Assembly: GCA_016841425.1 (NCBI GenBank)
Contig: JAENZE010000022.1
Span: 1-37,313, forward strand
Direction of reading: 5' to 3'
DNA length: 37,313 bases
DNA from: Syntrophomonas sp.
GTDB taxonomy: Bacteria > Bacillota > Syntrophomonadia > Syntrophomonadales > Syntrophomonadaceae
Shown: positions 7,256 to 33,124 of the stretch, piece after piece
Layout: every line of letters begins with the position of its first letter
Numbering within the stretch: the first letter of the stretch is position 1
Notes under the pieces: model-generated
Seen by the model: only the letters and a program-made list of their open reading frames with translations
Database searches by the model: none
Told to the model about the DNA's origin: nothing
Position numbers and translations under genes: made by a program

Positions 7256-7266
7256 CCTTTCTTCAC

Positions 7267-13907: not shown

Positions 13908-14120
13908 ATTAATCTTTTATCCACCTTTCCTTTTAATAGGGCCAGGCACCAAGTAATTAACTCAGCCAAACATATCTGTATGACACAAGAGCAGACGAAA
14001 ATTGTACGGATGAATGCTTAAGACCGCTTGGGTCCGGTCTTACTTTCTCCTTATTAATTAGCTACTGATGCTTTTAACTTCAAGGGCTGAAACAAGTTAT
14101 ATTCCCGCTAAAAAAATCGT

Positions 14121-14215
14121 CTTTGTCCCGTTTCGGGGTAGTACCCGCAACCTTAATAGTGACCAACGGGAACATCAGTAGTACCCGGAGGGTGAAGGGT
14201 GACCGCGGGACAAAG
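14121..14215 (-). other. Structured intergenic element with two 40-nt repeat units
   Basis: Perfect 10-bp arms CTTTGTCCCG (14121-14130) and CGGGACAAAG (14206-14215) enclose two units with an exact 40-nt period. On the plus strand GTAGTACCCG is at 14138-14147 and 14178-14187, and GTGACC at 14159-14164 and 14199-14204. The strand is uncertain; minus is assumed because all genes run that way. It could be a leader RNA for the SLH gene starting at 13907 or a small palindromic mobile element. The rest of 13908-14291 shows only a small hairpin (AGACCG/CGGTCT near 14020-14040) and a REP-like GGGCCAGGCACC at 13939. Confidence 0.55.
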
Positions 14216-14291
14216 CATAATATTCATTTACAACAACAAATAGCATGGGTGAAAGTTTATTTATTAAGTTAATACTTAACAGGCCCTCTCC

Positions 14292-14852
14292 TTACTGTAG
14301 TTCCAGGCTAACCAGGTATTTTGTAAATCGCAGTCCGGACTCGTCACTGCAGACAATCAGGTGCAGGCTCCCCTCCTCATCGCTTAAGGTTCTTAAAGGT
14401 TCGCCATAATCGAGATACATCACATACACCTCATCCGCCTTCTGGATTTCCGACATCTCCATCACCTGACTGTAGTAATCGATCCCCCTGGTGATGACTT
14501 TGGTATATTTTTGGCTGATGGACGGGTCAATACTGTTCAGCACATCCAGCAGCGGCACCCCGGTATACTGATGTTCTATCGGAGTATCGCTGTCACTATT
14601 GCCACAGGCGCCGCTGCAATCAGGCTTAACTGTTAATCTTTTTTCAACCGCTGCCATCTCCTCGATATCAGCAATCGTGAATCTGCCCAGGATTTCCTCA
14701 TCAGCCGTAATTATTACCGTCCCTTCCTGCAGGCCGCCCCTATCATGGCTGAAATACCATGAAACGGCCGCAATTACCAGCAGCAGTCCTATTCCTGCGA
14801 TCAGCCATTTTAGGGAACTGCTGCTCCTGCTTTCCTCGCTGCTCTTTGTCAT
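14292..14852 (-). CDS. Membrane-anchored minimal sulfite-oxidase-fold protein with retained Cys
   Basis: Residues 1-13 are Ser-rich and cytoplasmic, 14-34 form a membrane helix without a clear cleavage site, and the remainder is a small extracytoplasmic domain. FTIADIEEMAAVEKRLTV, YTGVPLLDVLNSI and DYYSQVMEMSEI match the sulfite-oxidase-like neighbours. Unlike most of them it keeps Cys at the ligand region: KPDCSGACGN (C79, C83), close to the CAGN/CSGN motif of true molybdopterin-binding members. It is the only stand-alone, N-terminally anchored version here, and could act as the membrane-proximal acceptor (inference). Confidence 0.72.
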   Translation of the reverse strand: MTKSSEESRSSSSLKWLIAGIGLLLVIAAVSWYFSHDRGGLQEGTVIITADEEILGRFTIADIEEMAAVEKRLTVKPDCSGACGNSDSDTPIEHQYTGVPLLDVLNSIDPSISQKYTKVITRGIDYYSQVMEMSEIQKADEVYVMYLDYGEPLRTLSDEEGSLHLIVCSDESGLRFTKYLVSLELQ

Positions 14853-14886
14853 CTTCCTGCCCCCCTAAAGATCAACTGCTTTTTCA

Positions 14887-16707: not shown

Positions 16708-16815
16708 AATATCTCCCTCCCTGCAGCCTATCCCCACTTTCCAGTTCACTTCAGCCAGCCTGATCTGTAATAAACAGCCTAACTCTCATCTAATCCATTT
16801 TATAGAATTAAATCC

Positions 16816-18300
16816 TTACAAGAGGTTCAGCTCTCTGCACATACCTGCAATCATAACCGCAGCCTCAACGCGAGTAGCAGGTGCCTGCGGACCAAATGAA
16901 CTCCCATTCATTGCATCTACAATGCTGCAGTTTGCAAGTAAAGCTATATCCTGTCTAGCCCAGGACGATATAGTACCCTTATCACTGAACCTGTTCAAGA
17001 TCTGATCGGCATCACTCACAGATATTTCCATGCCGGAACGCGTTTTAAGGGCCCGGGCAATCATAACCGCCAGCTGTTCATGATTCACATAATCATCCGG
17101 GGCAAAAGTACTGGCGTTATAGCCGGTTATCAAACCGGCCTGTACCCCAGCCCGAACCGGTTTATAATACCAGGAGCTGACCGGTACATCGGTAAAATTT
17201 AGGGGTTGACCCTGCTCAGGAGTGATTTGCAAAGCTGTGGTCAGCAGTTTGGCAATCTGAGCCCGGGTCAATTTTCCTTCCGGTTGGAATTCAGTGATAC
17301 TCATCCCGTTAATGATCCCTTTGTCTACCAGGGCATATACGTCATTCCGGGCCGGGTGGTTCTGCAGGTCCACAAACTGCCTGCTCCCTGCTGAAGATGA
17401 TGTCGACCCTGCCACCAGATATTCATAGGTGGCCACCTCGCTGTCCAGTTTACCCATACCGATAGTCCTGGTCTTGATAGTTAAACTCTTATCAATAGTT
17501 ATGGCTTTATTCAGCTCCGGCTGGAAGCTGGGATAGCTGATATTGGCTATCTTGCTCCCATAAGCGGGTTCACTGCCATCCAGGGTATAATAGACCAGGG
17601 CATGATAAGGAGTTCCATCCGTATATTGAATAGTGACCTGGGTTCCGGCTGGCACCATCCCGGGTGCCACATCTGGCTGTGGAGCATCCCACTGCTGCAG
17701 CGGGGTGGTCAATACCTCTATGGTTCCTCCCTGATACAGCCCGCTTAACATGCGGTTTATGCAGCAGGTGGGTTCATTGATGGCACACTGTCCATAAAGA
17801 AGTTTGCCGTGGTTCTTATTCAAGGCAATCATAGTTTCTACCAGTTTTTTGCCTTTTTCACTGCGAACCGGGGGCCATATACTGAGGTTTTCCTCTTCTT
17901 CACCCTCTGGAAAGTAGTAGCGGGGTTCCTCCAAAAGCTGGTCTCTGGTAAATTCAAAATAAACCGCATCATTCACTTTTACCCGAATAAGGGTAGCATT
18001 ATCTTTTAATCCGGCTTGATCCAGGATAGTTTTAAGAGTTGGTCCCTGCATGTCCTTAAAAATCTGCAGGGAGGGCCAGTGGTTATAGCCGGAATAGGTA
18101 TATTTAGCCTGAGGCAGGGCCTCCAACTCGGCCAGGCTGAATTCCACCATTCTTTCCACCCCATCCCCGGTTACCGTAAGAGCAATTTCACCATCCGCAG
18201 CTGATAGCTGCACCGTACTAACAAACAGGCAGCTGAAGATTATACTCAAGCCCAGTACAAGGACCAGCATTTTGTGAAAACTTAAGTTTTTACAGATCAT
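16816..18300 (-). CDS. SLH surface protein with sulfite-oxidase-like and chitobiase-like domains (type A)
   Basis: The 494-residue paralogue of the 12468-13907 product has the same order: signal peptide, type A domain (LPQAKYTYSGYNHWP, DQAGLKDNATLI, RYYFPEGEEE), chitobiase-type domain (VYYTLDGSEPAYGS) and three SLH repeats (from about 315). The type A binding region again has no Cys; CCINRM near residue 180 is a different site. AGGAGGTG lies 13 bases before the ATG, longer than usual, in a GC-rich folded leader. It precedes the type B gene, repeating the A-then-B order seen at 31261-26781. Confidence 0.83.
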   Translation of the reverse strand: MICKNLSFHKMLVLVLGLSIIFSCLFVSTVQLSAADGEIALTVTGDGVERMVEFSLAELEALPQAKYTYSGYNHWPSLQIFKDMQGPTLKTILDQAGLKDNATLIRVKVNDAVYFEFTRDQLLEEPRYYFPEGEEEENLSIWPPVRSEKGKKLVETMIALNKNHGKLLYGQCAINEPTCCINRMLSGLYQGGTIEVLTTPLQQWDAPQPDVAPGMVPAGTQVTIQYTDGTPYHALVYYTLDGSEPAYGSKIANISYPSFQPELNKAITIDKSLTIKTRTIGMGKLDSEVATYEYLVAGSTSSSAGSRQFVDLQNHPARNDVYALVDKGIINGMSITEFQPEGKLTRAQIAKLLTTALQITPEQGQPLNFTDVPVSSWYYKPVRAGVQAGLITGYNASTFAPDDYVNHEQLAVMIARALKTRSGMEISVSDADQILNRFSDKGTISSWARQDIALLANCSIVDAMNGSSFGPQAPATRVEAAVMIAGMCRELNLL

Positions 18301-18317
18301 AATGCTTTTTGGGCACC

Positions 18318-18432
18318 TCCTTCCTTTTCAGGCCTACCTCGCCTGCTTCTGCGAATCCAAAGATAGACTCAGATTAAACCCATTGCCCGGCTGAGGCAGC
18401 AGGTTTAACTTTTGATTACCAGGGACGCAGCA
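18318..18432 (-). promoter_or_regulatory. Folded leader upstream of the type A SLH gene
   Basis: On the minus strand the leader can form CCTGCT/AGCAGG as an outer stem, enclosing AAACC/GGGTTT-type and GAGTC/GATTC hairpins, and ends with the AGGAGGTG site. No U-run terminator is seen. It may control translation or transcript stability; I do not recognise a riboswitch class. Confidence 0.3.
18415..18432 (+). repeat. Left imperfect inverted repeat around the small secreted gene
   Basis: ATTACCAGGGACGCAGCA here matches the reverse complement of 19065-19083 (TGCTGCGTCCCAGGGTAAT) with one gap and one mismatch. The pair brackets the gene at 18484-19035. Confidence 0.45.
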
Positions 18433-18483
18433 AATGTTAACATTAACTATATTGTGATATCTGTTTTAATCAAGAAATTATGT

Positions 18484-19035
18484 TTAGTTATCTGTAAGGT
18501 AAATGGCATCCAAATCTTTGCACCATTCTGACATAGTATCATCCCCTGGATAGCCATATAATTGACCATGGAAATTCCGCAGGCAGTCGGTGCTGCTTAA
18601 AGTTTCGCCAACTTCACAGAATTGGAGAGCAATCACTGCGTCTATTGCTACAGCTGCACCACCCGGAGTTGCATAATAATACCCATAAATGGTACTCATG
18701 GGCAGATTGCCGGTACTCCAGCTGCCGTCCACATCTCTGAAATCGATATAATCAATATTGCCTACAGTAATACCAGCATCTTCCAATACATCCACCAGCA
18801 ACGGTCCGGCAGTGTTAAAATAATGATAGGATCCGCCACCTTTGCAGTAATAACTTGAATAAGTTTTATTATATTGGTCGAAATCATCTTCTAACTCACT
18901 GGCACTATATGATGTTACATAATTGTTGTTTAAATAAATATCCAGGGAATCGGATGCAAAGGCTGCCGGACAGGCTAAACACAGCAGTGCCGCTATTAAC
19001 ACTAGAATCCCCAGTATTTTTTTATTTTTTTTCAT
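18484..19035 (-). CDS. Small secreted sulfite-oxidase-fold protein
   Basis: The 183-residue protein has a clear signal peptide (KKNKKILGILVLIAALLCLACPAAFA) and a single domain. SASELEDDFDQYNKTYSSYYC, GPLLVDVLEDAGITVGNID and the closing LDAIYL follow the sulfite-oxidase-like pattern of the neighbours in shortened form. It has no SLH, chitobiase or membrane anchor, so it should be released or held by partners. Four Cys in the mature part may form disulfides. It is flanked by near-identical inverted repeats, hinting that it arrived or moves as a cassette. A good ribosome site precedes the ATG. Confidence 0.7.
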   Translation of the reverse strand: MKKNKKILGILVLIAALLCLACPAAFASDSLDIYLNNNYVTSYSASELEDDFDQYNKTYSSYYCKGGGSYHYFNTAGPLLVDVLEDAGITVGNIDYIDFRDVDGSWSTGNLPMSTIYGYYYATPGGAAVAIDAVIALQFCEVGETLSSTDCLRNFHGQLYGYPGDDTMSEWCKDLDAIYLTDN

Positions 19036-19064
19036 TTTTATACCTCCCCATATTTATAGTCGGC

Positions 19065-19083
19065 TGCTGCGTCCCAGGGTAAT
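19065..19083 (-). repeat. Right imperfect inverted repeat around the small secreted gene
   Basis: Mate of the repeat at 18415-18432; see that entry. The 19036-19156 gap also contains a TACTGGA/TCCAGTA hairpin. Confidence 0.45.
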
Positions 19084-19156
19084 TCCGGATTGGTACTGGA
19101 AACTCTTCCTTAGAGAAAAGCCTCCAGTATACACAAACTACTTTGTCAGCCAGTCT

Positions 19157-22100
19157 TTATTCTTCGCTTACCGTAAAACTCAGCTCCTGATTGGCTGCCG
19201 CCCGGGGCACCATGCTGGCCCAGTCTTCCCAGACAAAGACGTCTACATAGGCTTCCCCGCTGATACCTGACGGCAGGGTGAAATCGCTGCTGACCGTGGT
19301 GCCGCTTACCGGAATGTCGGTGGAAAAAACGCCTACACAGCCCAGGACCTGACCGCCGCTTTCGCTGCTGGCGTTGGCGCCGCCCCGTACCTGTATAATG
19401 GTAAGGCCGCCGGTGGCACTGCCATAATTATTATCTATCCCGGCCTGGATGCGGTAGCCGCCCTGGCTGGGTACCGTGCTGATTTCACTGCCGGCCGAAT
19501 TGAGCAGATCTACCTCATCAATTACAAAATAGTGCCCGGACAGTACATTCAGTCCTTCCAGCATCGCATTGATATCATCATTATCAGCTGGACTTACATC
19601 ATAGTACTGGAGAGTTCCGTCCCGGAAGATAATAATACCATTTGATATAGTTAATACATTGCTTAAACCAGTCAGGATCTCATCGTCAAAATTGTCTAAA
19701 TTACCCCAGCACACAACGCTGCCGTCTATCTTTATGGCTTTGCTTCCTCCTTCGGACCCAAGGCTTACAGCTGCAACATCATGAAGGCCTACCGGAACAT
19801 TGCGGCATCCAGAATAGTTTTCGCCCCATGCGACTACAGTGCCATTGTTTTTCAGGGCGAGACATCTCTCACTTCTGATACAAACATCTACTACCCCGCT
19901 CAAACCTTCTGGTACATCACACTGTCCGCAATAGTATTGGTTCTGTACATCTTGGTTGCTCCCCCAGGCTACTACCGTTCCATCGTGTTTCAAAGCCATG
20001 GAATAATAATGTTCTGCGAACACCCGGGCTACATTATCCAAACCACCTGGTACATCACATTGTCCATAATCATTATTCCCCCATGCTACTACTGTTCCGT
20101 CTTCTTTCAATGCCAGGAAATGATCATTGCCGGCAGCAATAGCAGTAACATTATCTAATCCGTCCGGTACCTGGCACTGCCCGTAAGAATCATTGCCCCA
20201 GGCGACCAGGGTGCCGTCATTTTTCAAAGCCAGGCAGCAGTCATTAGTGTTCTGGGTTAGGGTTATAGCGACAATGTCCTGTGCGCTATCCGGCACCTGA
20301 CACTGCCCGTCGTCGTCAAGTCCCCAGACGACTACGGTTCCGTTTCTCTTCAGGGCCATTATATTGCTAGATGAAGTGGTTATGGCAGTAACGCTGTTCA
20401 AGCCTTCCGGAATCTGAGCCAGATTAAAGTCATCTCTGTCAGACGTCTGGATAAGTTTGACGGTTCCATCCATATTTAAAATAGCTAACCCATATTCTGT
20501 AGAACCGATCTTAGCCGGGCCTTGAACATAGCTGCTGGCAGCATATTCTGCCGGGGTCTGGGGAATATCCGGTGATGGACCGCTGTAAGGGACCTCATCC
20601 TCAAGCAGATTCAGGCTGGAAGGCATATATGGTTCCAGGTTACTGGTATTTTCCCAAATCCCCAATGTACCATCCTCATTAAAAGCTAACATGTATTTAT
20701 CAACGCCTGATCCAATTACAGCCAGGGGTTTGTTTTCCAGTTCCAGAGGAATACTTATCGAACAGGCGTAGGTTCCTCCTCCGCCCCATACAGCCACGCT
20801 TCCATCCCATTTCAAAGCAGCCACATATCTGTACCCGGCAGCAATCCCCTTGATATACTGCAGGTTCAGAGCTTCTATTGCATACTTGGAGCTAGCTGCA
20901 CCCCACACTACCACAGTTCCATCATTTTTCAGAGCTACATTGTTTCTTTCCCCTGCTGCAATGGCTACTACGTCCTGCTTTGCCTCATCCGGTATTGCAT
21001 AATCAAACCATGTACTCGAACCCCAGATTCTTACCTCACCGCTGGACAACAATGCCAGCAACTGACGACTGCCGCCCTGAATATCTACAACCGTACTCTG
21101 ACTCAAATCTGAGGGTATACTTGACAAATAGTAATCATCAGACCCTCCGCCCCAGGCCCATACTTTGCCATCTGTGTCGAGAGCCAATGAAGTTTTACTA
21201 ACGGCGCAAATATCTACTATCACTTTGTCATTTAATACTTCCGGCACAGTGCACTGACCCAGATCATTCATACCCCAGGCCACCACGGTGCCATCTGCCT
21301 TCAAAGCCAGGCTGTGATAATTACCGGCTGATACGGCAATAACATCATTTACTTCAGGCGGCATATTGCACTGTCCAGCACCGTTATCGCCCCAGGCTGC
21401 CACGGTGCCATCACTTTTCACCACTAGAATATGATCTCTTCCAGCCGCAACACGTCTGGAATAACAAGCATAATCACTCTCTTGATAGGCTGCCGGAGTT
21501 GAAGGCAGCTCAGGCAGCACATAGTCGGCACTAACTTTCTTCACATGCAGGGTGTAACAGCGCTGACTGCCGCTGGCTGCGGTTACTTCGATCTCAATGG
21601 GATTATCACCCACGTTCAGCTCTGCTCCATTTATGACTGCGGTTTCACCACCGATAACTGGGGTTCCATTGACCTCCAAAGTCGCAGTGCTGCTGTAAGG
21701 CTGGGCTGTAATGCGGACTTCATTGACACTATTAGGAACATCCACGATTCCTTCAGTCTCATCCGAGCTGAATGTAGGATAGATGCCGCATACAGTTGTA
21801 GTAGTACCGTCATAGGTTTCCACACTCAAACTGTCCAAGTCAGCATTATCGCTAATAGGCCGGGTAACGGTGATGGTGTAGGTCTTCTCTATTGTTTCAT
21901 CCCGAGAGGTTACTACAACATCTATTGGATTCTCTCCCACTGTCAGGCCGCTCACCGTCTGGGCGGTGCCGCTGAATGCTGCTGCCCCGCCTATGGTCAA
22001 AGCAGCATTTGTATCTACAGTGCTGGCAGTAATGTCTAGGCTCTCTGCCTCACTGGATATAGTTATTGCATATGCGGTAATCGCAGGATCGAAGTCCTGG

Positions 22101-22831
22101 TCAAGAGGGTATCCTGTTACTCGCAGGCTTTCCAAATCAGCATTGTCACTGGGACATTCTTCCCGGGTAATAGTAATGGTGTAGGTCTTAGTCGTAACTT
22201 CATCTTCTGCGGTTACCACTACAGCTATATCATTTTCTCCCACCACCAGACTGCTTACCGGGCCAGTTATATTCACGCCAGCGTTTGTATCTGCTGCGGT
22301 GGCGGTTATTTCTACACTGTCTGTTTCAAAGGGTACAGTTAATGTATATTCCGTAGTCCCCGCAGCAAATACCTGGTCCAGGTTGTATCCTGTTACTCCC
22401 AGGCTTTCCAAATCAGCATTGTCATTCAGTAATACATCCGCCCTGTTAATAGTAAGAGTATAGTTCTTAACTGTAGTTCCGTCCTGGGCGGTTACTCCTA
22501 TAACTATATCAGTGTCTCCCACCTGCAGACCGCTCACCGTCTGGGCGGCCCCGCTGAAGGCTACAGTTCCATCGATGGTCAATGATGCGTTTTCGTCCGC
22601 GGTGGTGGCGGTAATGTCTATGCTCTCTGCCTCATTGGGTATACTTACTGCATAACTGGTAGTACCTGAATCAAAGTCCGGGGCCAGATCATATTCCCCC
22701 GCCACTTGCAGACTGCTTAAATCAGCATTGCTGCTGGCTGCGGGATCTGCCGGCACATCTTCGGCTAACCCGGCCGGTATACACATAAACAGCATCATAA
22801 AACACAGTACTAATGAACATATTTTTCTCAT
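19157..22831 (-). CDS. Giant secreted protein: cadherin-like repeats plus RCC1 repeats
   Basis: 1224 residues. After a signal peptide come four cadherin-like beta-sandwich repeats (PF12733 type, about 34-433), each starting NADL.SL.V and ending TYTITITR. About 440-1100 holds RCC1-type repeats with the unit DGTVVAWG.N..GQC.VP (over ten copies), expected to form one or two beta-propellers. The last 115 residues (from EVDLLNSAGSEIS) are a domain shared with the products at 23016 and 29600. There is no SLH or sorting motif, so attachment may depend on that shared domain. No enzyme motif is seen; binding or adhesion is likely. It is a close paralogue of the next protein upstream. Confidence 0.83.
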   Translation of the reverse strand: MRKICSLVLCFMMLFMCIPAGLAEDVPADPAASSNADLSSLQVAGEYDLAPDFDSGTTSYAVSIPNEAESIDITATTADENASLTIDGTVAFSGAAQTVSGLQVGDTDIVIGVTAQDGTTVKNYTLTINRADVLLNDNADLESLGVTGYNLDQVFAAGTTEYTLTVPFETDSVEITATAADTNAGVNITGPVSSLVVGENDIAVVVTAEDEVTTKTYTITITREECPSDNADLESLRVTGYPLDQDFDPAITAYAITISSEAESLDITASTVDTNAALTIGGAAAFSGTAQTVSGLTVGENPIDVVVTSRDETIEKTYTITVTRPISDNADLDSLSVETYDGTTTTVCGIYPTFSSDETEGIVDVPNSVNEVRITAQPYSSTATLEVNGTPVIGGETAVINGAELNVGDNPIEIEVTAASGSQRCYTLHVKKVSADYVLPELPSTPAAYQESDYACYSRRVAAGRDHILVVKSDGTVAAWGDNGAGQCNMPPEVNDVIAVSAGNYHSLALKADGTVVAWGMNDLGQCTVPEVLNDKVIVDICAVSKTSLALDTDGKVWAWGGGSDDYYLSSIPSDLSQSTVVDIQGGSRQLLALLSSGEVRIWGSSTWFDYAIPDEAKQDVVAIAAGERNNVALKNDGTVVVWGAASSKYAIEALNLQYIKGIAAGYRYVAALKWDGSVAVWGGGGTYACSISIPLELENKPLAVIGSGVDKYMLAFNEDGTLGIWENTSNLEPYMPSSLNLLEDEVPYSGPSPDIPQTPAEYAASSYVQGPAKIGSTEYGLAILNMDGTVKLIQTSDRDDFNLAQIPEGLNSVTAITTSSSNIMALKRNGTVVVWGLDDDGQCQVPDSAQDIVAITLTQNTNDCCLALKNDGTLVAWGNDSYGQCQVPDGLDNVTAIAAGNDHFLALKEDGTVVAWGNNDYGQCDVPGGLDNVARVFAEHYYSMALKHDGTVVAWGSNQDVQNQYYCGQCDVPEGLSGVVDVCIRSERCLALKNNGTVVAWGENYSGCRNVPVGLHDVAAVSLGSEGGSKAIKIDGSVVCWGNLDNFDDEILTGLSNVLTISNGIIIFRDGTLQYYDVSPADNDDINAMLEGLNVLSGHYFVIDEVDLLNSAGSEISTVPSQGGYRIQAGIDNNYGSATGGLTIIQVRGGANASSESGGQVLGCVGVFSTDIPVSGTTVSSDFTLPSGISGEAYVDVFVWEDWASMVPRAAANQELSFTVSEE

Positions 22832-22930
22832 CTTTATTCCTTCCCCTTCCTCTCCGCTATTTTTCGTAATATTCCTTATCTACGGGTAATTGCCTGGATC
22901 CCCCCTTTGCTTGTGGGACTGATTTATAAA

Positions 22931-22968
22931 CGAACTAATTTAATCACTTTCTCGCTAGTTCATTTAAA
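22931..22968 (-). terminator. Possible hairpin between the two RCC1 genes
   Basis: On the minus strand AATGAACTA pairs with TAGTTCGTT (one G-U) around an 18-base loop. It lacks a good U-run, so it may be an attenuator or processing site rather than a terminator. Confidence 0.3.
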
Positions 22969-23015
22969 ATGCCTTGAGGACGAGCCAATGTCCCGCCCCC
23001 AAGGTACTCTGTACG

Positions 23016-26000
23016 CTATGCGGTCAGATTAAAGCTGAATTGGTACGGCATATCAATGGGTACGCCGGCTTCATCCAGAATATATACATCTACATATACT
23101 GTCCCGGGCGAGACATCAGAGAGATCAAAATCAGCATAGATGTCGGCACCGGCTGCTGGTATACCTGACTGCAGGCTGATTATTCCCTGGGGTTCTCCGC
23201 CGTACGCTGCGTTAGCATCAGAACCGCTGCGCAGCTGGAACAGGGTAGTAACGGTCTGGGGGCGACTGGTATTATTGTTGATATGGGCTTTTATATGACA
23301 GGTTTCCGAACTGGATACGGAGTTTATTTCTTCATGGGAACTGTCCAGGAGATTAACGCTGTAAATGCCAGCTTTAGCATTCAGCTGGATGTTTTTACTG
23401 ATCTTGTACTCATCCAGAACAGTGCCATTTGCCCCAATCGTCGTAAGGGTTAATACATCACTATCAATATTTATGATGCAATAACTGATGGCATCCGCCC
23501 CTTCGGCCACAGCAGCGATGTATTCACTCTCCTGCGGACTAAGGTAGGTTTTGTTTCCGGAAACACCCATCACATAGGTAACCCCATCGGCAGCATTTTC
23601 CTGCACCGCCCCTGAACAAAGGGGATAGGTACGCATATACATATGCTGATGACCGACAAAGGCCATATCAACATCATTTCTTTCCAGTATAGGTGCCCAG
23701 TACTCTTTTATGGTTTCGCATATTGAACTATCGTAGGAGGTTACTTCATAGGCAGGATGATGGAACATGACAAAATTCCAATCCTTAGTGCTGTTCTGCA
23801 GGTCGGTTTCCAGCCATTCCATCCCGGCCTCTGTTATATCACCTTCGATTCCCATGAGGTTGCTGTCCATTACAACAAAATGAGCGTTGGCATAGTCGAA
23901 TGAGTAGTGATGTTCTTCCAGTCCTTCCGGTCCATTCTGGGGAAGAGCGAAAGATTTAAAATATATGCTGGTTTCTTCATCTTCATGGTTGCCTATAGCG
24001 GGCATAAATGGTATTTGATCAAAATATCCCGATTGGATATCGAAAAAATCTTCCCATTGGCTAATATCAGTGGTTTCATCCACTAAGTCGCCTGAGTGCA
24101 GGGCGAATTTTATATCCGGGTAATCGTTCCAGGCATCAGCCAGGAGGTTGGACCACACAGCAGAACTGTTTTCGTTATAGCCTATATGAGTATCACCTAA
24201 GTACATGAATGAAAATGTGTCAGTCGAAGCAGCTGTGGTAAAGATCGCTGCTTCACTCCAATTATTCTCCGTGCCCACCCGATAGACATAAGTGGTACCC
24301 GGTTCTAAATCGGTCAGTTGGGCTTCAAAATGATTATACCCTTCATAAAGTTGAGTACAGATCGCATATACTCCCTGGGCACCGCTAAAGTCGCCAGTTT
24401 GTTCACTTTCTTTCATATATTGTACTTGTCCGCTGCTGATATGGCTGCTGCTTCGCCAGGCTGCAGTCTGAGTAGTTTTTGGATCACCCGTCCAGGACAA
24501 TATGATCTGATCGGGTAAAAGATCTTCAGCTGCTATAATAGTAATGGTTATTGTGTAGGTTTTTATCGTGTGTCTATCCTGGGCAGTTACTTCAACAGTA
24601 ACGATGTTCTCTCCTACTACCAGGTTGTTTACTGTCTGAGCAGTCCCACTTACGGCTGCAGTTCCCCCTATCTTCAGGCTGGCGTTTGCATCGGCGGTTT
24701 CAGCGGTTATATTTACGCTGCTCACTTCATTTAGTATCGTTACTGCGTATTCGGTTGTATCAGAATTAAAGGCTGGTTCCAGATCACATCCTGTCACTAC
24801 CAGACTGCTCAGACCGGCATTACTGCTGGCAGCATCTGAAGCCCGGGTGATAGTAATGGTGTAAGTTTTAGTTGTCTCCTGATCCTCAGCAGTTACTTCT
24901 ACAGATATTTCATTTGTTCCCACCGCCAGATTATCTGCTGGACCGGTTATCTTTACGGCAGCATTGTCATCTGCTTTAGTGGCAGTTATTTCTACACTGC
25001 TGACTTCATAGGGCACATCTACTGTGTACTGAGTTTTATCAGAATTAAAGGATGGTTCCAGATCGTATCCGGCTACTACTAAATTTTCCAAATCAGCATT
25101 GCTGTCGCTGTTTAAGAGATTCAGGCCCTCGGGAACATCAGGCCCAATTACGTATAACGTTCCATCTTCCTGCAGTCCGCATATATAGGCACTGTTTCCT
25201 TCTATAGCTGAAGAGAAGGCCAAAATATTCGAACTTGCCGGGATCAGTTCTATCCCCTCGGTATTGTTATTGACGGGAGACATGCTTCCCCACCCTTGGA
25301 CTGATCCATCAGCCAGTAAAGCTGCTGCATACTTAAATCCTCCTGCAACAGCTTTTATACCGGTCTGGCTGCTTATACCATTACAGTCACTGGCATGGTT
25401 ACCCCATACTACTACGGTTCCGTCTTTCTTAAGAGCCACACAGTGATATACTCCAGCTGCTACGTCCAGGGTCTGTCCATCCAATCCTCCCGGTTTCGCC
25501 CCGGCATTGCTGCCCCAGGCGATAACATTGCCATCTTCGTTAACAACCATAGTATCAACGCTGTTAACTGCTACAGCGACTACATTGCTCAATATATCAG
25601 TCTGCTGGGAGTTGGGCAGCTGTTTGCTCCATACGATAACCTGGTTGGACTCGGTCACTACTGCCAAGGCAGCTCCTCCAGCTGCTATAAGTTTAATATT
25701 TCCCTGCACCGTTCCTACTGTATCAGGAATGTTGACTGCTACTATTTCCCCCGATGAATTAAAATTACTGCCCCAGGCTACCACCGTGCCATCATTTTTT
25801 AAGGCCAACGTGGCATAAATGCTCGCTGCCAGTGCCTTAACATCTGCCAACCCCTCAGGTACATCGCACTGCCCGTAGGTGTTATCACCCCAGGCTTCAA
25901 CTGTCCCATCAGCTTTGACCACTGCTATATGATCTCCACCAACCGCTATCCGGTTACGATATTGAACATAATCACTGGCTGCATATTCTGCCGGGGTCAG

Positions 26001-26705
26001 AGGCAGCTCACTTTCACCTAAAGCCCGTAATAAAACTTCCGCTTCAGCCCTGGTTATAGTAATGGTGTAGGTCTTTACTGTACTCTCGTCTTCGGCAGTC
26101 ACTTCTACAGCTATTTTATTGTCTCCTACAGCCAAATTATCTACCGGGCCTGATATATTAACTACAGCATTTTCGTCTTCTGCGGCCGCGGTTATTTCTA
26201 CATCCTCAACTTCATTGGGTACATCTACTGCATAATCAGTAATTTCAGCCTCAAAGTCCGGGTCCAGTTCATATCCCGCCACTTCCAATATACTTAGATC
26301 CGCATTGCTGCTGGCCGGTGGTGTTTCCGCCGGTATTTCTTCGGCACGTGTAGCCGTAATAGTATAGGTCTTAATAGTTCCATCCTCAGCGGTCACTTCT
26401 ACCGCTATTTCATTGTCTCCTACAACTAAATTATCTGCCGGGCCAGTTATATTGACGACAGCATTTTCATCTGCTGCAGTAGCAGTTATTTCTACACTAT
26501 CCACCTCATTGGTAACATTTACTGTATAATCAGTAATTTCAGCCGCAAAGTCCGGGTCCAGCTCATATCCCGCCACTTCCAGTATGCTCAGGTCAGCATT
26601 ACTGCTGGCTGGTCCATCTGCCGGATTTTCATCAGCCAGACCTGCAGCTGGTATGCACATGAACAGCATCATGATACATAGTATTATTGACCATAGTCTT
26701 CTCAT
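23016..26705 (-). CDS. Giant secreted protein: cadherin-like, RCC1 and purple-acid-phosphatase domains
   Basis: About 1229 residues. Signal peptide, two cadherin-like repeats, RCC1 repeats (about 240-530), two more cadherin-like repeats (about 540-730), then a purple acid phosphatase N-terminal FN3 domain (LSWTGDPKTTQTAAWR) and a calcineurin-like phosphoesterase. Metal-binding motifs are complete: YLGDTH, LHSGDLVDE, IGNHEDE, MFHHPAYE and GHQHMYMR. The C-terminal 115 residues are shared with two neighbours. It probably hydrolyses phosphoesters outside the cell. The ATG at 26705 is preferred over the upstream TTG because the resulting signal peptide matches the paralogue's (MRRLWSIILCIMMLF). 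Confidence 0.85.
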   Translation of the reverse strand: MRRLWSIILCIMMLFMCIPAAGLADENPADGPASSNADLSILEVAGYELDPDFAAEITDYTVNVTNEVDSVEITATAADENAVVNITGPADNLVVGDNEIAVEVTAEDGTIKTYTITATRAEEIPAETPPASSNADLSILEVAGYELDPDFEAEITDYAVDVPNEVEDVEITAAAEDENAVVNISGPVDNLAVGDNKIAVEVTAEDESTVKTYTITITRAEAEVLLRALGESELPLTPAEYAASDYVQYRNRIAVGGDHIAVVKADGTVEAWGDNTYGQCDVPEGLADVKALAASIYATLALKNDGTVVAWGSNFNSSGEIVAVNIPDTVGTVQGNIKLIAAGGAALAVVTESNQVIVWSKQLPNSQQTDILSNVVAVAVNSVDTMVVNEDGNVIAWGSNAGAKPGGLDGQTLDVAAGVYHCVALKKDGTVVVWGNHASDCNGISSQTGIKAVAGGFKYAAALLADGSVQGWGSMSPVNNNTEGIELIPASSNILAFSSAIEGNSAYICGLQEDGTLYVIGPDVPEGLNLLNSDSNADLENLVVAGYDLEPSFNSDKTQYTVDVPYEVSSVEITATKADDNAAVKITGPADNLAVGTNEISVEVTAEDQETTKTYTITITRASDAASSNAGLSSLVVTGCDLEPAFNSDTTEYAVTILNEVSSVNITAETADANASLKIGGTAAVSGTAQTVNNLVVGENIVTVEVTAQDRHTIKTYTITITIIAAEDLLPDQIILSWTGDPKTTQTAAWRSSSHISSGQVQYMKESEQTGDFSGAQGVYAICTQLYEGYNHFEAQLTDLEPGTTYVYRVGTENNWSEAAIFTTAASTDTFSFMYLGDTHIGYNENSSAVWSNLLADAWNDYPDIKFALHSGDLVDETTDISQWEDFFDIQSGYFDQIPFMPAIGNHEDEETSIYFKSFALPQNGPEGLEEHHYSFDYANAHFVVMDSNLMGIEGDITEAGMEWLETDLQNSTKDWNFVMFHHPAYEVTSYDSSICETIKEYWAPILERNDVDMAFVGHQHMYMRTYPLCSGAVQENAADGVTYVMGVSGNKTYLSPQESEYIAAVAEGADAISYCIINIDSDVLTLTTIGANGTVLDEYKISKNIQLNAKAGIYSVNLLDSSHEEINSVSSSETCHIKAHINNNTSRPQTVTTLFQLRSGSDANAAYGGEPQGIISLQSGIPAAGADIYADFDLSDVSPGTVYVDVYILDEAGVPIDMPYQFSFNLTA
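26053..26625 (-). repeat. Recent intragenic duplication of cadherin-like modules
   Basis: The first two cadherin-like modules of the phosphatase protein (about 26352-26625 and 26053-26320) are nearly identical at protein level (NADLSILEVAGYELDPDF in both) and similar in DNA, unlike the more diverged later pair. This points to recent unequal crossover. Confidence 0.65.
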
Positions 26706-26780
26706 TTCCACCAATTCTCCTTTCCTCCCCTTGAGTCACCCTTTATCCGCTTATACAGATCATTGGGAATACCAAGATAT

Positions 26781-29564
26781 TTACTCATATTCAATAAAGT
26801 TTATATAAACCAGGAACCGTTTTAACATAACTGCACTCTGGGCTCGATCAGCGTTGCTCCGGGGAGTAAAATTACCATCAGGCATGCCATTGATGATTCC
26901 AGCGCCCGCTGCCAGTGCTACATCTTTTCCGGCCCAGGGAGAAATTGCCTGATGATCCCCAAACCTAGCCAAATATGCTTCCTGTTCTGCAGCCGAGAGC
27001 TTATTCTCTATTCCGGCCACCCGGGCGGCCCTGACTATCATGACTGCGATTTCCTCCCGAGTTATATTGTTATTAGGTTTAAACAGCTGTCCATCATAAC
27101 CGGTAATTATGTTTTCAGCTACTGCAGTTGCTACGCTGCCGGCATACCAGGCATTAACATCGACATCCTTGAACTGCCCTGCTTTTAAGACCCCTTCTTC
27201 CAGTCCCAATGCTCTTACCAAGAGGGTGGCAAACTCGGCCCGGGTAATGCTGCTGTTCGGTTCATAAGCACTCTCACTCTTGCCGGCAATCAGCATCTTG
27301 GAAGCCAGTAATTCGATGTCGCTCCTGGCCCAGCTGTTCTGAATATCAGCAAAGGTTTTACTCATCTGCAGCACCGTGTACAGGCTGTTGCTGCGGCTAA
27401 ATATGTCCGCATATTCTATGCCATCCTGGATCTCAAAGAGTGTGGGCAATGGTAAGAATTTGCCGTTGGCTTCATTCCAGACTACTCCTACCGCCTGCCT
27501 GGGATCAGCCGATTTCTTCAAGAGCAGGTCTCGCTCTACATACGTACCGCCAAAATAGCTGTACTCTATCTTCTTTCCGCCGGGGGCTGTAACTTCTACC
27601 TTAAATTCGGTGGGGTCGGTCAGCATCTGCTGTCCGGGCTGGAGCTGTGCGGTCAGTTTATTCCTGTCCCCTTCATTCGCTCGCGATATCACTATGTTTA
27701 AGGTGAGATCCTCCAATTTCACTCCCAGACGGGCTGCAGCTTCTTCCAGATTTATAGTGTTTAAGGGCAGGGTGTATCTGCCTATCTGACTGTCTATCCC
27801 TAAAAACATCCCTTTTTCTTGGGCTGCCTGAACAATCAGGGCGGGGATTTGCATATGCACTTCATCCACATCATCAGTTGAAATAACAGTCATTCTGCTG
27901 CCGGGCAGACCATTTTCAATATCAGGCAAAGCGCCCTCCAGCAAGACCATCCGCTCTCCGGTACGGCCACCATCCCCGGTTATTGACTCCCGCAATATGT
28001 TTTCTTCACTGAAGGTCTGCAAGGTCAATGCTGAAGCGGGCGTAACCTGGGGCACAGATACGAGTTCTGGGGGTAAGGCTCCGCCACCAGGAGGGGTACT
28101 GCCTACGGTGAAGGTCAGACTAATAACTTTACTATCATAGTTGCCCCTGCCAATAGCTACGGCTTTTATCGTGGTTTCCCCGGTTATTTCAACCGGCTCC
28201 TCTACCCCCTGTTCCGGTCCGCAGCCATGCAGGTTAAATATATCGCTGTCCATATTGGGAGTACTGCCATCTGTAGTATAGTAGATTTTGGGTACCGCAC
28301 TGTTGTGCTTGAGATAGATCAATGAGCCGCCTGGTACTGCACCGCCCTCAGTGACATCCCCATTTTTCGAACCAATTACAGCGGTTGGACAATCCCATTT
28401 ATCCGGGGTATCAGTTTCAACGGTTATTGTACTCAAGCGTTTAACAAACCATAGTAAGGTCTGCTCAGTTGCGGCTCGCTGTCCATAAACCATTACCGGT
28501 ATATCATCATCAGTCATATCATCATAGCTGGAAGATCCTTCCGCTCGTTGCAGGGCTATGATAGGCTCCACCGTGGTTTTAGAAGGAAATATATATCGGG
28601 TTTGGCTGAATAATTCATTTATGGTGAATTCAGCCTCATATCCGTCAGTGCCGATAAAGCTAATCAATTTGGCCTGGCTCCAGTTTATTCCCGCATTATT
28701 CAGTAATGTCCTGAGCGGAACACCTTCAACTGCCATCGGTAAATCGTGAGGCCGGTCACTGGTAACAGATAACACCTTTCTGGTCAGATTCATTTCCTGC
28801 AGTTCCTGGAGGGAATAGGAAACCGTCTTCGAGACTCCATCGCCGTTAATGGTCAGAAAATCCTCAGTGTTTCCTCCCCCGCCAGGTCCGCCGCCAGTTC
28901 CTGATGAACTAACCATGAAGCTGCTGGTCTGGGGGACCGCCATTCCATACCCGGTAATATAAATGGTATATTGCCCGGCTGATGCATCTGCGGGTAATGT
29001 GAATCCGCAACCAAAAGTGTTATTTTCTACCGTTGGCTGGGCCACATAGACTCTTCCATTCTTACTGTTGCGCACAGACACGGCAAGACAATCCACGTTT
29101 TCAGCTGTTCCGGATATCTCCACCTGCTCTCCGGCCTTAAATTCTGCACTGTCTGATGGCTTTATGATATTAACTGCCACATTAAGATCCCTCACCAGGA
29201 AAATCCGTTTAACCGGGGAAAGGCTCAAACCGCTCAGTGTGATGGTATATTCCCCTTCCGCTGCATCGGAATCCAATATAAAGCTGGTGGAAAAAATCCC
29301 GTTGCTCACCCTGGGCTGGGCCGTATATACCAGGCTATCCTGCGCACTTCTGACTGTTATGGCAACTTCTGCCAGTCCCTGGGCAGTTCCGGATATCTCC
29401 ACCACACTCCCCAGCCCGAATACCTGACGAGCAGTAGGTGAGGTAAAATCGGCCTGTATATTACTGGCACAACTGGCCGGAAGATTAATGCCTAACATAG
29501 TCAACGATATGGCCAGGACCATAAAGATGCTCAGCCATTTCTTCCTATTTTTATGTATATTCAT
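26781..29564 (-). CDS. Large SLH protein: Ig-like, sulfite-oxidase-like (type B), chitobiase-like domains
   Basis: 927 residues. Signal peptide; two Ig-like repeats (about 35-217), each with VEISGTA and YTAQP/YVAQP; Gly-rich hinge; type B sulfite-oxidase-like domain (about 232-400: LPMAVEGVPLRTLLNNAGI, GTDGYEAEFT, YGQRAATEQT); chitobiase-type domain (IYYTTDGSTPNMDS); a 240-residue region of the kind seen before SLH repeats in other S-layer proteins; and three SLH repeats (about 745-927). The Mo-ligand Cys position is Ser/Thr. AGGAGAG five bases before the ATG supports the start. It follows the type A gene, mirroring the pair at 18300-14887. Confidence 0.83.
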   Translation of the reverse strand: MNIHKNRKKWLSIFMVLAISLTMLGINLPASCASNIQADFTSPTARQVFGLGSVVEISGTAQGLAEVAITVRSAQDSLVYTAQPRVSNGIFSTSFILDSDAAEGEYTITLSGLSLSPVKRIFLVRDLNVAVNIIKPSDSAEFKAGEQVEISGTAENVDCLAVSVRNSKNGRVYVAQPTVENNTFGCGFTLPADASAGQYTIYITGYGMAVPQTSSFMVSSSGTGGGPGGGGNTEDFLTINGDGVSKTVSYSLQELQEMNLTRKVLSVTSDRPHDLPMAVEGVPLRTLLNNAGINWSQAKLISFIGTDGYEAEFTINELFSQTRYIFPSKTTVEPIIALQRAEGSSSYDDMTDDDIPVMVYGQRAATEQTLLWFVKRLSTITVETDTPDKWDCPTAVIGSKNGDVTEGGAVPGGSLIYLKHNSAVPKIYYTTDGSTPNMDSDIFNLHGCGPEQGVEEPVEITGETTIKAVAIGRGNYDSKVISLTFTVGSTPPGGGALPPELVSVPQVTPASALTLQTFSEENILRESITGDGGRTGERMVLLEGALPDIENGLPGSRMTVISTDDVDEVHMQIPALIVQAAQEKGMFLGIDSQIGRYTLPLNTINLEEAAARLGVKLEDLTLNIVISRANEGDRNKLTAQLQPGQQMLTDPTEFKVEVTAPGGKKIEYSYFGGTYVERDLLLKKSADPRQAVGVVWNEANGKFLPLPTLFEIQDGIEYADIFSRSNSLYTVLQMSKTFADIQNSWARSDIELLASKMLIAGKSESAYEPNSSITRAEFATLLVRALGLEEGVLKAGQFKDVDVNAWYAGSVATAVAENIITGYDGQLFKPNNNITREEIAVMIVRAARVAGIENKLSAAEQEAYLARFGDHQAISPWAGKDVALAAGAGIINGMPDGNFTPRSNADRAQSAVMLKRFLVYINFIEYE

Positions 29565-29599: not shown

Positions 29600-31261
29600 T
29601 TACTCGATGTTAAAATTCAAGGTATGATCGTCACTCCCCAATGGGTTATAATTGCTGAAGTTATCCCAGATGAAAACATCAACATATGCTTTCCCGCTCA
29701 CATCCTCGGGCAGGTTGAATTCAGCCTTGCATTTACCGCCATTCACGTCTACAACGGTTTGGGCAGCGGTATAGGCTATTACCTGGCCACCGCTTATCAT
29801 ACCAGCCTCACTTCCTGCGCGTACCTGAATGATTAATAAGGCATTTTTGGCTGTATTTACCTGGTTCACGGAATCAACCTCAATACAATATCCTCCACCG
29901 GGCGCCACGGAACTTGTAGCTGCCCCGGTATAATCCAACAGCTGCACATCACTGATGGTAATTTCATCATCAACATTGACCAGCTCAACCGCATTGACAT
30001 ACTTTAAGCGGTTGAGACCAGCATCGCTGCCATTGCGCAGGATTTGAATGGTTACCGTCTCATCTCCTGATACATCCGATACTTCAGCACCATTGACTTC
30101 ATAAGCCAGCATGCACTGCTGATCTCTAATATCCTGTACTGTGCCCCCGGTAAACTTTTCCCCGTTGACAGCAATGAAATTCACTTCCCAGTTGCTGGAA
30201 GCATTGAGTTGATCCAATAGGGTACTGAGAAGTACTCCTTTCGCATTAACGCTTACCGTCTGTCCACTCTCCAAACACTGGTAAGTCCTCTCAGCCGGAG
30301 TCATGACTCTCAAGGTTTCGACAGTATAATAGGTATTAAGACCTGCGCCTTTTATCGTACAGGCCAGTGATCCCAGATCATAGTTGAAAGTGACTACTTC
30401 GCTGTCCAGTTTGCCCAGACCGATAGCCCGGGCTTTGATTGTGACTGGTCCGTCAATAGGTATGGGTTTATTTAAATGAGGCTGAAAGGTGGGATAACTG
30501 ATATTGTATATATTGCTATGTACCGTAGGTTCGCTTCCATCCACGGTGTAATATATCTTGGTGTGCCATAGTGACCCGTCTCCATACTGCAGCTCAACTT
30601 CCGTATCTTCCATTACCGAGCCGGAGTTGGGATATGCATCAGGTGTATCCCACTGGGTCAGTTCTTCACAAGTTACTTCAATCGTGCCCCCTTTTAGAAT
30701 CCCATAAAACTGTTCCCCGTTGCAGGCAGTCGGTTCCAGTGGATCCCACTGACCATAAATCAATTTGCCATTTTTCATAAAAGCTATCATGGCAGGAACT
30801 TCTACTTTTCCTTGTTCTCCCCGGCCTTCCGGGGGCCATACCGTACAGTCGCTGCTATCTTCCCCCTGCGGGAAATAATAGCGCGGAACATCCAGCAGAT
30901 CCCTGCAGGTATAGTAGCTGTATGTGGAATTACTTAATCTTATTTTAATCATAGTAGCTTCCTCTTTCAGCCCGGCCTGATCAAGAAGAGTCTGCAGGGT
31001 TACCCCGGTAGTGTCTTTGAATATCTGCAGAGAGGGATAAAAATTATATCCGGAATAATCATGAGTTTCCTGGGGCAGGGCCTCTATTTGCGCCATGGTA
31101 AACTGTACGGTGTTTTCCACCCCATTCCCCTTTATGGTCAATACTATTTCATCCTCGGCCAACGCTGCAGGTGCGGCAATAGTCAGAAGGCTAAAAATTA
31201 TGCTCAGAGCAATTACACCTGCCAGCACTTTGTTAACCCGGAATTTAGTGAATTTTTTCAT
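29600..31261 (-). CDS. Secreted protein with two sulfite-oxidase-like domains and shared C-terminal domain (type A)
   Basis: 553 residues. Signal peptide; type A domain (about 38-205: LPQETHDYSGYNFYP, RYYFPQGED); chitobiase-type domain (IYYTVDGSEPTVHS); a second, shorter domain of the same fold (about 300-430: YTVETLRVMTPAERTYQC, LLSTLLDQLNA) that keeps a Cys in TYQCLES; and the 115-residue C-terminal domain found in the two RCC1 proteins. It has no SLH repeats, so it differs from the other type A proteins in anchoring. AAGGTGG precedes the ATG by six bases. Confidence 0.8.
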   Translation of the reverse strand: MKKFTKFRVNKVLAGVIALSIIFSLLTIAAPAALAEDEIVLTIKGNGVENTVQFTMAQIEALPQETHDYSGYNFYPSLQIFKDTTGVTLQTLLDQAGLKEEATMIKIRLSNSTYSYYTCRDLLDVPRYYFPQGEDSSDCTVWPPEGRGEQGKVEVPAMIAFMKNGKLIYGQWDPLEPTACNGEQFYGILKGGTIEVTCEELTQWDTPDAYPNSGSVMEDTEVELQYGDGSLWHTKIYYTVDGSEPTVHSNIYNISYPTFQPHLNKPIPIDGPVTIKARAIGLGKLDSEVVTFNYDLGSLACTIKGAGLNTYYTVETLRVMTPAERTYQCLESGQTVSVNAKGVLLSTLLDQLNASSNWEVNFIAVNGEKFTGGTVQDIRDQQCMLAYEVNGAEVSDVSGDETVTIQILRNGSDAGLNRLKYVNAVELVNVDDEITISDVQLLDYTGAATSSVAPGGGYCIEVDSVNQVNTAKNALLIIQVRAGSEAGMISGGQVIAYTAAQTVVDVNGGKCKAEFNLPEDVSGKAYVDVFIWDNFSNYNPLGSDDHTLNFNIE

Positions 31262-31292: not shown

Positions 31293-32327
31293 CTACCTGG
31301 AGTTAAGCACGTTCATAATAAGGGTTACTGCTTCACCCCTTTTGGCATATTTCAGCGGCTGAATGGTATTATCGGAATATCCCTGCATGAGCCCCTTTTG
31401 TGTCATGGCTGCTATAGCTTCCCGGGCCCAAACGGATATATCAGCACTGTCGTTAAAGCCCGGTTCTTCTGCGGCTCCAGCTATTCCAGCTGCTCTTACT
31501 ATCATAACCGCCATTTGCTCGCGGGTAACCGGATCATCTGGTCCGAAAGTATCCGCATTATATCCATTGGCCACCCCACTGGCTACTGCCGCAGCGATAT
31601 GATTCCTGGCCCAGTGGTTTACGGTATCCTTAAAAGTTGCACTGCTCTGCTGATTCAGGTTGAAAGCCTTTACCAGTACGGCAGCAAATTCAGCACGGCT
31701 GATAGTTTTTTCAGGCCGAAAACTACCATCGGGATAACCATTTATAGCTCCCAGAGCTACCAGCTGACTGATGCTGCTGGAGGCCCAGTGCCCGTTAGTA
31801 TCATTAAAATTCTGAGTCCCGGTAGAAGCTGTGACACCAGCTTCACTGTTTCCGGTAATCGCTTCGGGGTTGGGGCTTACTCCCCCTCCGCTACCTCCAC
31901 CGCCGGTAGTTGGACTTACTCCCCCGGGTGTTGTACTGCCTCCGGGCGGGACAGATGAGTTGTCCTTGCTTACCCCGAAAGTAAATACAAGGGGTGCACC
32001 TAAACCTTCTGCCCCGATCTTGATAGTATATATGCCTTCTAAGGCATCGCTATTAAGTTGAAATCCAGTTGTGAAAGTACCATTAAATACAGATGGCTGT
32101 GCTACATAAGCAATACTTCCTTTAGGATTAAACACTACCAGCGATACCTGTTGTACGTTGCTTGCCTTTCCGCTTATTTCAACATCATCTCCTGGACTGA
32201 TGGCCTGTGAAGAAGCCGGTGAATCAAGACTTATTGATACTCCATTTTCTTCAGCAAAACAAGTCCCGTTTAAAACAAACAAACAAATAATCAGTACCAT
32301 TAGTAAACTTCCCAACGTTTTTCTCAC
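31293..32327 (-). CDS. SLH surface protein with one Ig-like domain
   Basis: 344 residues. Signal peptide (1-25); one Ig-like domain (about 30-120: VEISGKASNVQQVSLVVF, AYVAQPSVFNG) homologous to the repeats in the product at 26781; a Pro/Gly/Ser-rich linker; and three SLH repeats (from about 170: FNDTNGHWA, FKDTVNHWA, FNDSADISVWA). It starts at GTG with AAGGA nine bases upstream. It has no sulfite-oxidase-like domain and is the first gene after the tandem leader RNAs, so it may be the structural S-layer anchor of the set. Confidence 0.83.
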   Translation of the reverse strand: MRKTLGSLLMVLIICLFVLNGTCFAEENGVSISLDSPASSQAISPGDDVEISGKASNVQQVSLVVFNPKGSIAYVAQPSVFNGTFTTGFQLNSDALEGIYTIKIGAEGLGAPLVFTFGVSKDNSSVPPGGSTTPGGVSPTTGGGGSGGGVSPNPEAITGNSEAGVTASTGTQNFNDTNGHWASSSISQLVALGAINGYPDGSFRPEKTISRAEFAAVLVKAFNLNQQSSATFKDTVNHWARNHIAAAVASGVANGYNADTFGPDDPVTREQMAVMIVRAAGIAGAAEEPGFNDSADISVWAREAIAAMTQKGLMQGYSDNTIQPLKYAKRGEAVTLIMNVLNSR

Positions 32328-32496: not shown

Positions 32497-32665
32497 AAAA
32501 AACTTCTGCCAAAAGAGTATAGACAGAAGTTTAAAACTATCCTGATACTCCTTTCCAAATGCGGGAGGCGGCAAAATTTCTCTCACCACCCTCGGGTTTT
32601 TGCCCTGGGCTGCTAAACCATAGACTGAATCCTTAGGTTTAACAGCTCGGAGTCGTTATTCGGTT
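32497..32665 (-). ncRNA. Riboswitch-like leader RNA, copy B (proximal)
   Basis: Copy of the element at 32796-32965 with an exactly parallel layout: closing pair ACTCC/GGAGT, a 10-bp stem (CTGTTAAACC at 32636-32645 with GGTTTAGCAG at 32610-32619, minus-strand sequences), a GGCAAAA/TTTTGCC stem around ACCCGAGGGTGG, and a 3' terminator hairpin ACTTCTG/CAGAAGT (32502-32530) followed by six U. It lies about 170 bases upstream of the first surface gene. No known class was recognised by eye. Confidence 0.6.
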
Positions 32666-32795
32666 TTCTGCTGACTTATCTTTTCCCAGAACCCTATGCC
32701 AATAGTTTCAAGTCTATTATTTTTACTATTGCAGCAATTTTGATGATTTCGGCTAAAACAGCGTTACTGATTATCTTGTGCTGTTCAAAAATATC

Positions 32796-32965
32796 AAAAA
32801 ACTTCTGCCAAAAGAGTATAGACAGAAGTTTAAAACTATCCTGATACTCCTTTCCAAATGCGGGAGGCGGCAAAATTTCTCTCACCACCCTCGGGTTTTT
32901 GCCCTGGGCTGCTGAACCATAGACTTGAATCCTTAGGTTCAACAGCTCGGAGTTATTATTCGGTT
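32796..32965 (-). ncRNA. Riboswitch-like leader RNA, copy A (distal)
   Basis: This copy is nearly identical to copy B, offset by 299-300 bases. Its 10-bp stem pairs 32936-32945 with 32909-32918. Compared with copy B the pair at 32940/32914 is G-C instead of A-U, a compensatory double change that keeps the stem. A one-base indel in the loop shows the conservation is structural rather than coding. It ends in ACTTCTG/CAGAAGT (32801-32829) and U6. A weak promoter candidate (TTGAAC-16-TAATAA) lies at 33031-33058. Confidence 0.6.
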
Positions 32966-33064
32966 GTAAAGCTCTCAAATCTAATAAATTAATAATAAGA
33001 TGATAAAGGCTTGGTATTACGGATCGATTTTTATTATTTAATCTCATTTCATGTTCAAGAAAAT

Positions 33065-33098
33065 AAAAACTTCTACCCGGCGAATTGTAGGCAGAAGT
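33065..33098 (-). terminator. Third terminator of the leader array
   Basis: A ten-pair stem ACTTCTGCCT/GGGTAGAAGT (33069-33098, minus strand) is followed by U5. Its core matches the terminators of the two leader RNAs. The 33 bases before it (33092-33124, with GATACTC) also align with the leader 3' ends, so it is the remnant of a third copy. Confidence 0.7.
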
Positions 33099-33124
33099 AA
33101 TTGATTATACTTGATACTCATTCC

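Follow-up and report, generated by a model that had tools for sequence, protein, structure and literature searches.

The array and the genes it leads

The window analysed here is a stretch of 37,313 nucleotides from Syntrophomonas sp. (contig JAENZE010000022.1), and its minus strand carries a tandem leader in front of surface-protein genes (Table 1). The leader has two units, at 32496-32665 and 32795-32965, which are 97% identical over 170 nt. A covariance-model search against the Rfam family RF01055, which has a gathering score of 36, matched both, and judged by their sequence the two aptamers are full-length molybdenum cofactor (Moco)/tungsten-cofactor riboswitches, well above chance. Each carries a GAAA tetraloop of the GNRA class on P4, and their P3 is short, with a mismatch at 2 of five register positions. 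Further upstream lies an aptamer-less unit, where RF01055 gave no match even at an E-value of 10. This third terminator is most likely what remains of an older unit that has decayed, and a similar aptamer-less terminator also precedes an array in another genome of the genus (G003). The preliminary description of this stretch had reported two copies and a third remnant, all ending in the same ACTTCTG/CAGAAGT terminator stem and lying upstream of surface-protein genes. All three places could be located, and the minus-strand array indeed leads surface genes that start at 32327.

Table 1. Coordinates of the features discussed, in window positions except for the last line.
Feature	Position	Strand	Basis or remark
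Aptamer 1, promoter-proximal, Moco riboswitch, P3-containing	32831..32964	-	RF01055 89.8 bits, model 1-135, E 6.9e-21
Aptamer 2, Moco riboswitch, P3-containing	32532..32660	-	RF01055 83.7 bits, model 1-135, E 4.5e-19
Terminator 1: 11-bp stem 32799-32809/32821-32831, loop 32810-32820, U run	32796..32831	-	Sequence; dG -12.6
Terminator 2: stem 32500-32510/32522-32532, loop 32511-32521, U run	32497..32532	-	Sequence
P1 3' strand, unit 1 (AAAGGAGUAU), able to pair with terminator loop 32810-32819	32844..32853	-	10/10 pairs; MFE of cut transcript
P1 3' strand, unit 2, complementary to terminator loop 32511-32520	32545..32554	-	Pairing and MFE folds
Third unit, aptamer-less: GAGTATC tract 33113-33119, terminator 33069-33077/33090-33098, U run	33063..33119	-	
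IS21-family element (istA/istB), terminal inverted repeats, flanking 5-base duplication GGGAA	33513..35930	-	About 400 nt upstream of array
First gene: 344-aa S-layer-homology (SLH) protein, GTG start	31293..32327	-	Pfam SLH 145 bits
Secreted protein with SUOX/PruR-like domain (30647-31156)	29600..31261	-	Pfam, predicted structure, alignment
SLH protein with SUOX/PruR-like domain	26781..29564	-	Pfam, domain search
Further same-strand genes: surface proteins (metallophosphatase/RCC1/cadherin-like; SLH + SUOX/PruR-like; Shr-like HID), then MotA_ExbB, DUF2149	10156..26714	-	
ECF-type transporter genes (PF09819, two ATPases, CbiQ) and TrmO_N-FmdE protein	6428..10054	-	Same strand, after surface genes
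Mixed tandem before formate dehydrogenase (L072; counterparts L076, L077, L078, L079)	G000:C25:266595-266189		

An automatic terminator scan called no terminator, as it allows loops of at most 8 and the loop here has 11. A promoter scan gave 7 hits against 4.8 +/- 2.1 in shuffles, which is not clearly above chance. The IS21 insertion upstream of the array may have changed the promoter.

Among the proteins behind the array, Pfam calls an Oxidored_molyb domain weakly in two, at 31.4 and 23.8 bits for a cut-off of 24. The predicted structure of the domain (pLDDT 87, pTM 0.84) resembles the molybdenum domain of sulfite dehydrogenase (2xts_A; Z 12.6, rmsd 2.8, 124 residues aligned) and the stand-alone pterin-binding PruR proteins (7rkb, with neopterin, Z 11.9; 7kos_D, Z 11.7); by this model the surface domain has the sulfite-oxidase (SUOX) fold. 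A PDB sequence search with the domain profile gave chance-level matches only, and the relation to PruR and SUOX proteins therefore rests on the predicted fold. SUOX enzymes require a molybdenum-binding cysteine and PruR is described without one (PMC13259868). No cysteine is invariant in our sequence alignment of 19 domains; R92-Y93 and W169 are, in an alignment numbering that is not mapped onto the PruR pterin site (Tyr104, Trp160). With a modelled SUOX fold and no invariant cysteine, the surface proteins look like PruR-type pterin-binding proteins. The same review describes the PruR pocket as probably unable to hold Moco, which counts against direct capture of Moco. Other genes of the window include ExbB-like and DUF2149 genes at 10156-12360, on the same strand after the surface genes, and a gene at 2079-3146 that by eye resembles an ACR3-type arsenite transporter.

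Aptamer structure and the proposed switch

Selection on RNA structure had been proposed from a G-C to A-U double change and a one-base loop indel between the copies. Both differences are real: the first is P2 pair 25-51, where the promoter-proximal copy has G-C and its partner A-U, and the second falls in the P2 end loop. One double change alone is weak evidence; an alignment of 11 units is not. The genus has 12 P3-containing array units, and the alignment takes in all but the decayed G001 unit, with 90.0% of cells paired and double changes in 11 of 38 pairs (37 cells). Its covariation score is 0.319. Shuffles gave 0.195, none of 500 reaching the observed score, and sliding the partners gave no more than 0.141; the aligned units are related rather than independent, and the sliding control keeps this relatedness. 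P3 pairs 59-73 and 61-71 show joint changes from one array type to the other, and the P3 helix is 74.5% paired. The proposal of selection is thus upheld by covariation across the genus.

The P1 3' strand (AAAGGAGUAU) and the terminator loop (AUACUCUUUU) are complementary over 10 pairs. In the MFE fold of a transcript that ends before the terminator 3' arm they form an antiterminator, extended by GGAUAG/CUGUCU, and the MFE fold of the full unit has aptamer, P1 and terminator. In the units of G001 and of the second G003 array (G003b), AAAGGAGUAC pairs with GUGCUCUUUU or GUACUCUUUU, and GGAAG with CUUCU, so the pairing is kept despite differing sequence; a U-A pair of the antiterminator is swapped for C-G between the window and these units. 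All 12 P3-containing array units have a terminator, though that of the decayed unit is poorly formed. MFE folds of cut transcripts have at least 7 P1-strand antiterminator pairs in 9 of the 12 units; the three with fewer are the decayed G001 unit, G3a_1 and G3a_2. Pairing is 10/10 in five of the six units tabulated from the 12. Against shuffled downstream tracts no unit is individually significant (fractions 0.095-1.0, 12 units), which is due to the purine-rich P1 strand and the U-rich downstream tract, and a duplex test of the antiterminator fell below p 0.05 in only 2 of 12 units. Among six full-length units folded, G1_3 retained the antiterminator in place of the terminator, and the G2_2 sequence stopped short of its terminator arm.

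By its sequence, the leader holds two full aptamers, two terminators and, in each unit, a P1 3' strand that can pair with P1 or with the terminator loop, but not with both at once. We consider it likely, with a probability of roughly 85%, that the P3-containing RF01055 doublet works as independent transcription-termination OFF switches in series on the surface-protein operon, where the continuity of the operon over 26 kb is an assumption. With plentiful cofactor, binding would hold P1 closed, the terminator would form and RNA polymerase would stop at unit 1 or 2. With scarce cofactor, the P1 3' strand would pair with the terminator loop, the terminator 5' arm would be held in the enclosed loop and transcription would proceed into the surface genes. 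Serial stops should make the response steeper and reduce the leak. The steeper response, put forward as sharper control in the preliminary description, would fit the published pseudo-cooperative model for such tandems (PMC9481103); the leader combines two aptamers of the same class, each with its own expression platform.

A mobile or simply duplicated repeat without function could look similar at first sight, as the copies are recent duplicates or homogenised. The preliminary description had itself named scattered copies or a lack of covariation as grounds for giving up a regulatory role. A whole-genome search, however, found the unit at its two places only and nowhere else, the covariation over 11 units is clear, and 12 of the genome's 13 RF01055 copies precede transport, hydrogenase, formate dehydrogenase, surface or redox genes, the remaining one being at a contig end; we regard the chance of a functionless repeat as close to nil. 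It is very unlikely, too, that the array is a silent relic whose control was lost after the IS21 insertion or the decay of the leading unit. The element at 33513-35930 and the missing aptamer of the third unit would suit such a loss, but some 400 nt of leader still separate the third terminator from the element, the two aptamers are intact and differ at a pair whose change is compensated, and G002 and G003 have kept related arrays in front of the same set of genes.

Two further alternatives accept a working array and differ in its logic. A cofactor sometimes induces the genes that depend on it, which would favour a ligand-activated ON switch where binding promotes read-through. But P1 and the antiterminator compete for one strand, so that a stable P1 removes the antiterminator and ligand-induced termination is predicted, which leaves the ON switch only a slim chance. 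Two-input control, as the preliminary description had also suggested, would require each window copy to recognise a ligand of its own, for instance Moco in one case and the tungsten cofactor in the other. Mixed tandems of P3-lacking and P3-containing aptamers do exist in the genus; the window copies, however, are both of the P3-containing type, nearly identical and clustered in the tree, and we find this suggestion extremely unlikely for the window array. OFF switches in series thus remain our preferred reading.

Arrays, surface domains and mixed tandems in the family

The genus has two types of P3-containing array. Type A, found in the window, G002 and G003a, stands before the surface operon, and type B, found in G001 and G003b, before a ModA-type operon; the array at G001:C37 was considered as a surface-gene array and rejected, as it leads a ModA-type gene. 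In G003 both types diverge from one intergenic region, with the surface genes and the molybdate transporter head to head. The window copies cluster together in the tree (support 0.88), the G002 copies do likewise (0.916) and, with midpoint rooting, the G003a units also fall together. This clustering within each lineage points to duplication or homogenisation within lineages. In the window, G001 and G003, the unit nearest the promoter has decayed or lacks an aptamer.

The surface domain was found at 51 places in 7 of the 8 family genomes examined, with none in G001. It forms 14 clusters in those 7 genomes. Of these clusters, 8 have a Moco riboswitch on their own strand no more than 5 kb upstream of their start, where random placement would give about 1% per cluster; the other 6 have no Moco riboswitch in front. 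By profile comparison, the domain is confirmed for proteins behind riboswitches in another genus (99.6% and 99.3%) and for the C9 loci in the window's own genome (98.5% and 84.1%); a ModA control and another surface protein came out at 0.4% each. Among 14 loci with the domain from a wider search, RF01055 was present only at two genus-mate loci (L133 and L134). The other 12, from Pelotomaculum, Desulfoscipio, Anaerovorax, Petroclostridium, UBA4049 and a second locus of the G003 organism, gave no Rfam match up to 10 kb on each side. No general link between domain and riboswitch outside the family was seen at these loci. The single-contig genome G025 (2,936,195 bp), probably Syntrophomonas wolfei by its size, has a six-domain cluster behind the riboswitch at C1:2249385.

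RF01055 is present in 52 of 61 genomes searched. Within the window's family it occurs in 34 of 37 genomes with 285 matches, 282 of them over the cut-off (below it are G001:C37:184043, G012:C20:35340 and G028:C4:183438). When matches at most 500 nt apart on one strand are counted as one leader, there are 238 leaders: 203 single, 25 double, 8 triple (three including a below-cut-off member) and 2 quadruple, and tandem leaders occur in 20 of the 34 genomes. The family is rich in Moco-riboswitch tandems, as Regulski 2008 saw in S. wolfei. The P3 state was read from sequence for 63 of the 285 aptamers and from length alone for the remainder; the sequence-based index misplaced P2 in many rows, which were judged by eye. 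Downstream ORFs were taken from the 94 of 238 leaders with at least 500 nt of downstream sequence, 4 of which had no ORF, and 88 of the 90 were scanned, two giant ORFs being left out. Among them were matches to Molybdopterin oxidoreductase (19), SBP_bac_11, ModA-type (18), PBP_like_2, TupA-type (8), SLH (7), Fe_hyd_lg_C (4) and cobW/HypB (4), a set that suits a regulon of the cofactor.

Some individual loci deserve mention. The longest runs in the census are six Moco-family aptamers within 1.3 kb at G022:C37:2870-4147, four in series and two divergent, and four in series at G023:C91:5338-6089. In the window's genome, a single P3-lacking riboswitch (L075, G000:C25:51160-51040) precedes genes that by eye are hypA/hypB-like and [NiFe]-hydrogenase-like; hydrogenases behind tungsten-cofactor tandem riboswitches have already been reported (Sherlock 2022, PMC9481103). 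Another P3-lacking riboswitch (L070, G000:C11:38073-42281) stands before SLH/Ig-like surface proteins and a FecCD-like permease, again by eye, and this gene content suggests a metal-chelate importer in the regulon.

In front of a formate dehydrogenase operon, all 5 genus genomes have a mixed tandem in which a P3-lacking aptamer comes first and a P3-containing one 131-165 nt after it, and in all five each aptamer has its own terminator. The P3 stem of these tandems is 96% paired, without double changes, and folding did not resolve an antiterminator for this leader. The catalytic formate dehydrogenase gene of the window's genome (L072) has an in-frame TGA that probably encodes selenocysteine. 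P3 presence correlates with Moco and its absence with the tungsten cofactor, a specificity that rests on correlation (Regulski 2008, PMC2408646). If this assignment is right, the mixed tandem is a candidate NOR gate for the two cofactors. The logic-gate table of Sherlock 2022 (PMC9481103) lists no mixed Moco/tungsten-cofactor gate, and we found no earlier report of one in the open-access literature searched. The mixed pair would also allow the claim about P3 to be tested in one leader.

These observations can be joined in a broader scheme, which we put forward as speculative and rather unlikely as a whole. Under cofactor starvation, the surface operon would be induced, S-layer-anchored PruR-like domains would capture pterins, molybdopterin or a Mo or W chelate, and the catch would be passed via the ExbB/DUF2149 and ECF-type proteins to a cell that senses the finished cofactor, with the same sensors forming a Moco-plus-tungsten-cofactor NOR gate (the mixed tandem) on formate dehydrogenase.

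Comparison with known riboswitches and pterin-binding proteins

The preliminary description had left the ligand between a molybdenum-cofactor-type and a novel one. The full-length RF01055 matches agree with the former; the latter is rejected because the matches are full, to a family in print since 2007-2008. The value of the locus lies not in the riboswitch class, which is known, but in the surface operon led by the array, together with the mixed doublet elsewhere in the genome. A sensor of finished cofactor before surface proteins of pterin-binding type makes the function of these proteins testable, and raises the question whether the surface of syntrophic bacteria serves to gather molybdenum, tungsten or pterins.

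In its full-length match, GAAA tetraloop, conserved core and a terminator platform as in some members, the array resembles the published RF01055 riboswitches (Regulski 2008, PMC2408646). Those described there lead genes for cofactor synthesis, transport or a classical molybdoenzyme, whereas the window array leads S-layer proteins. Tandem Moco/tungsten-cofactor riboswitches have been reported in S. wolfei and G. metallireducens (Regulski 2008, PMC2408646), and 13 Moco doublets and 2 triplets were listed later (Sherlock 2022, PMC9481103). The window array adds one more to these tandems, with which it shares serial aptamers, a terminator for each and the pseudo-cooperative class. The Moco tandems of Sherlock 2022 lie upstream of cofactor biosynthesis genes, and the surface operon as a target is the less expected part.

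A published parallel comes from S. wolfei, where P3-lacking RNAs precede 'putative sulphite oxidase' genes (Regulski 2008, PMC2408646). Through the G025 cluster, these products probably belong to the same protein family as the window surface domain. The S. wolfei case, however, is a single 119-nt aptamer, probably P3-lacking, and the window has a P3-containing doublet; the products were named sulphite oxidases, whereas the domains aligned here have no invariant cysteine. PruR (PMC13259868; PDB 7rkb, 7kos) shares with the window domains the SUOX fold, secretion, a length of about 170 residues and the lack of a conserved molybdenum-binding cysteine. It differs in standing alone, while the window domains are parts of S-layer-anchored and other large surface proteins.
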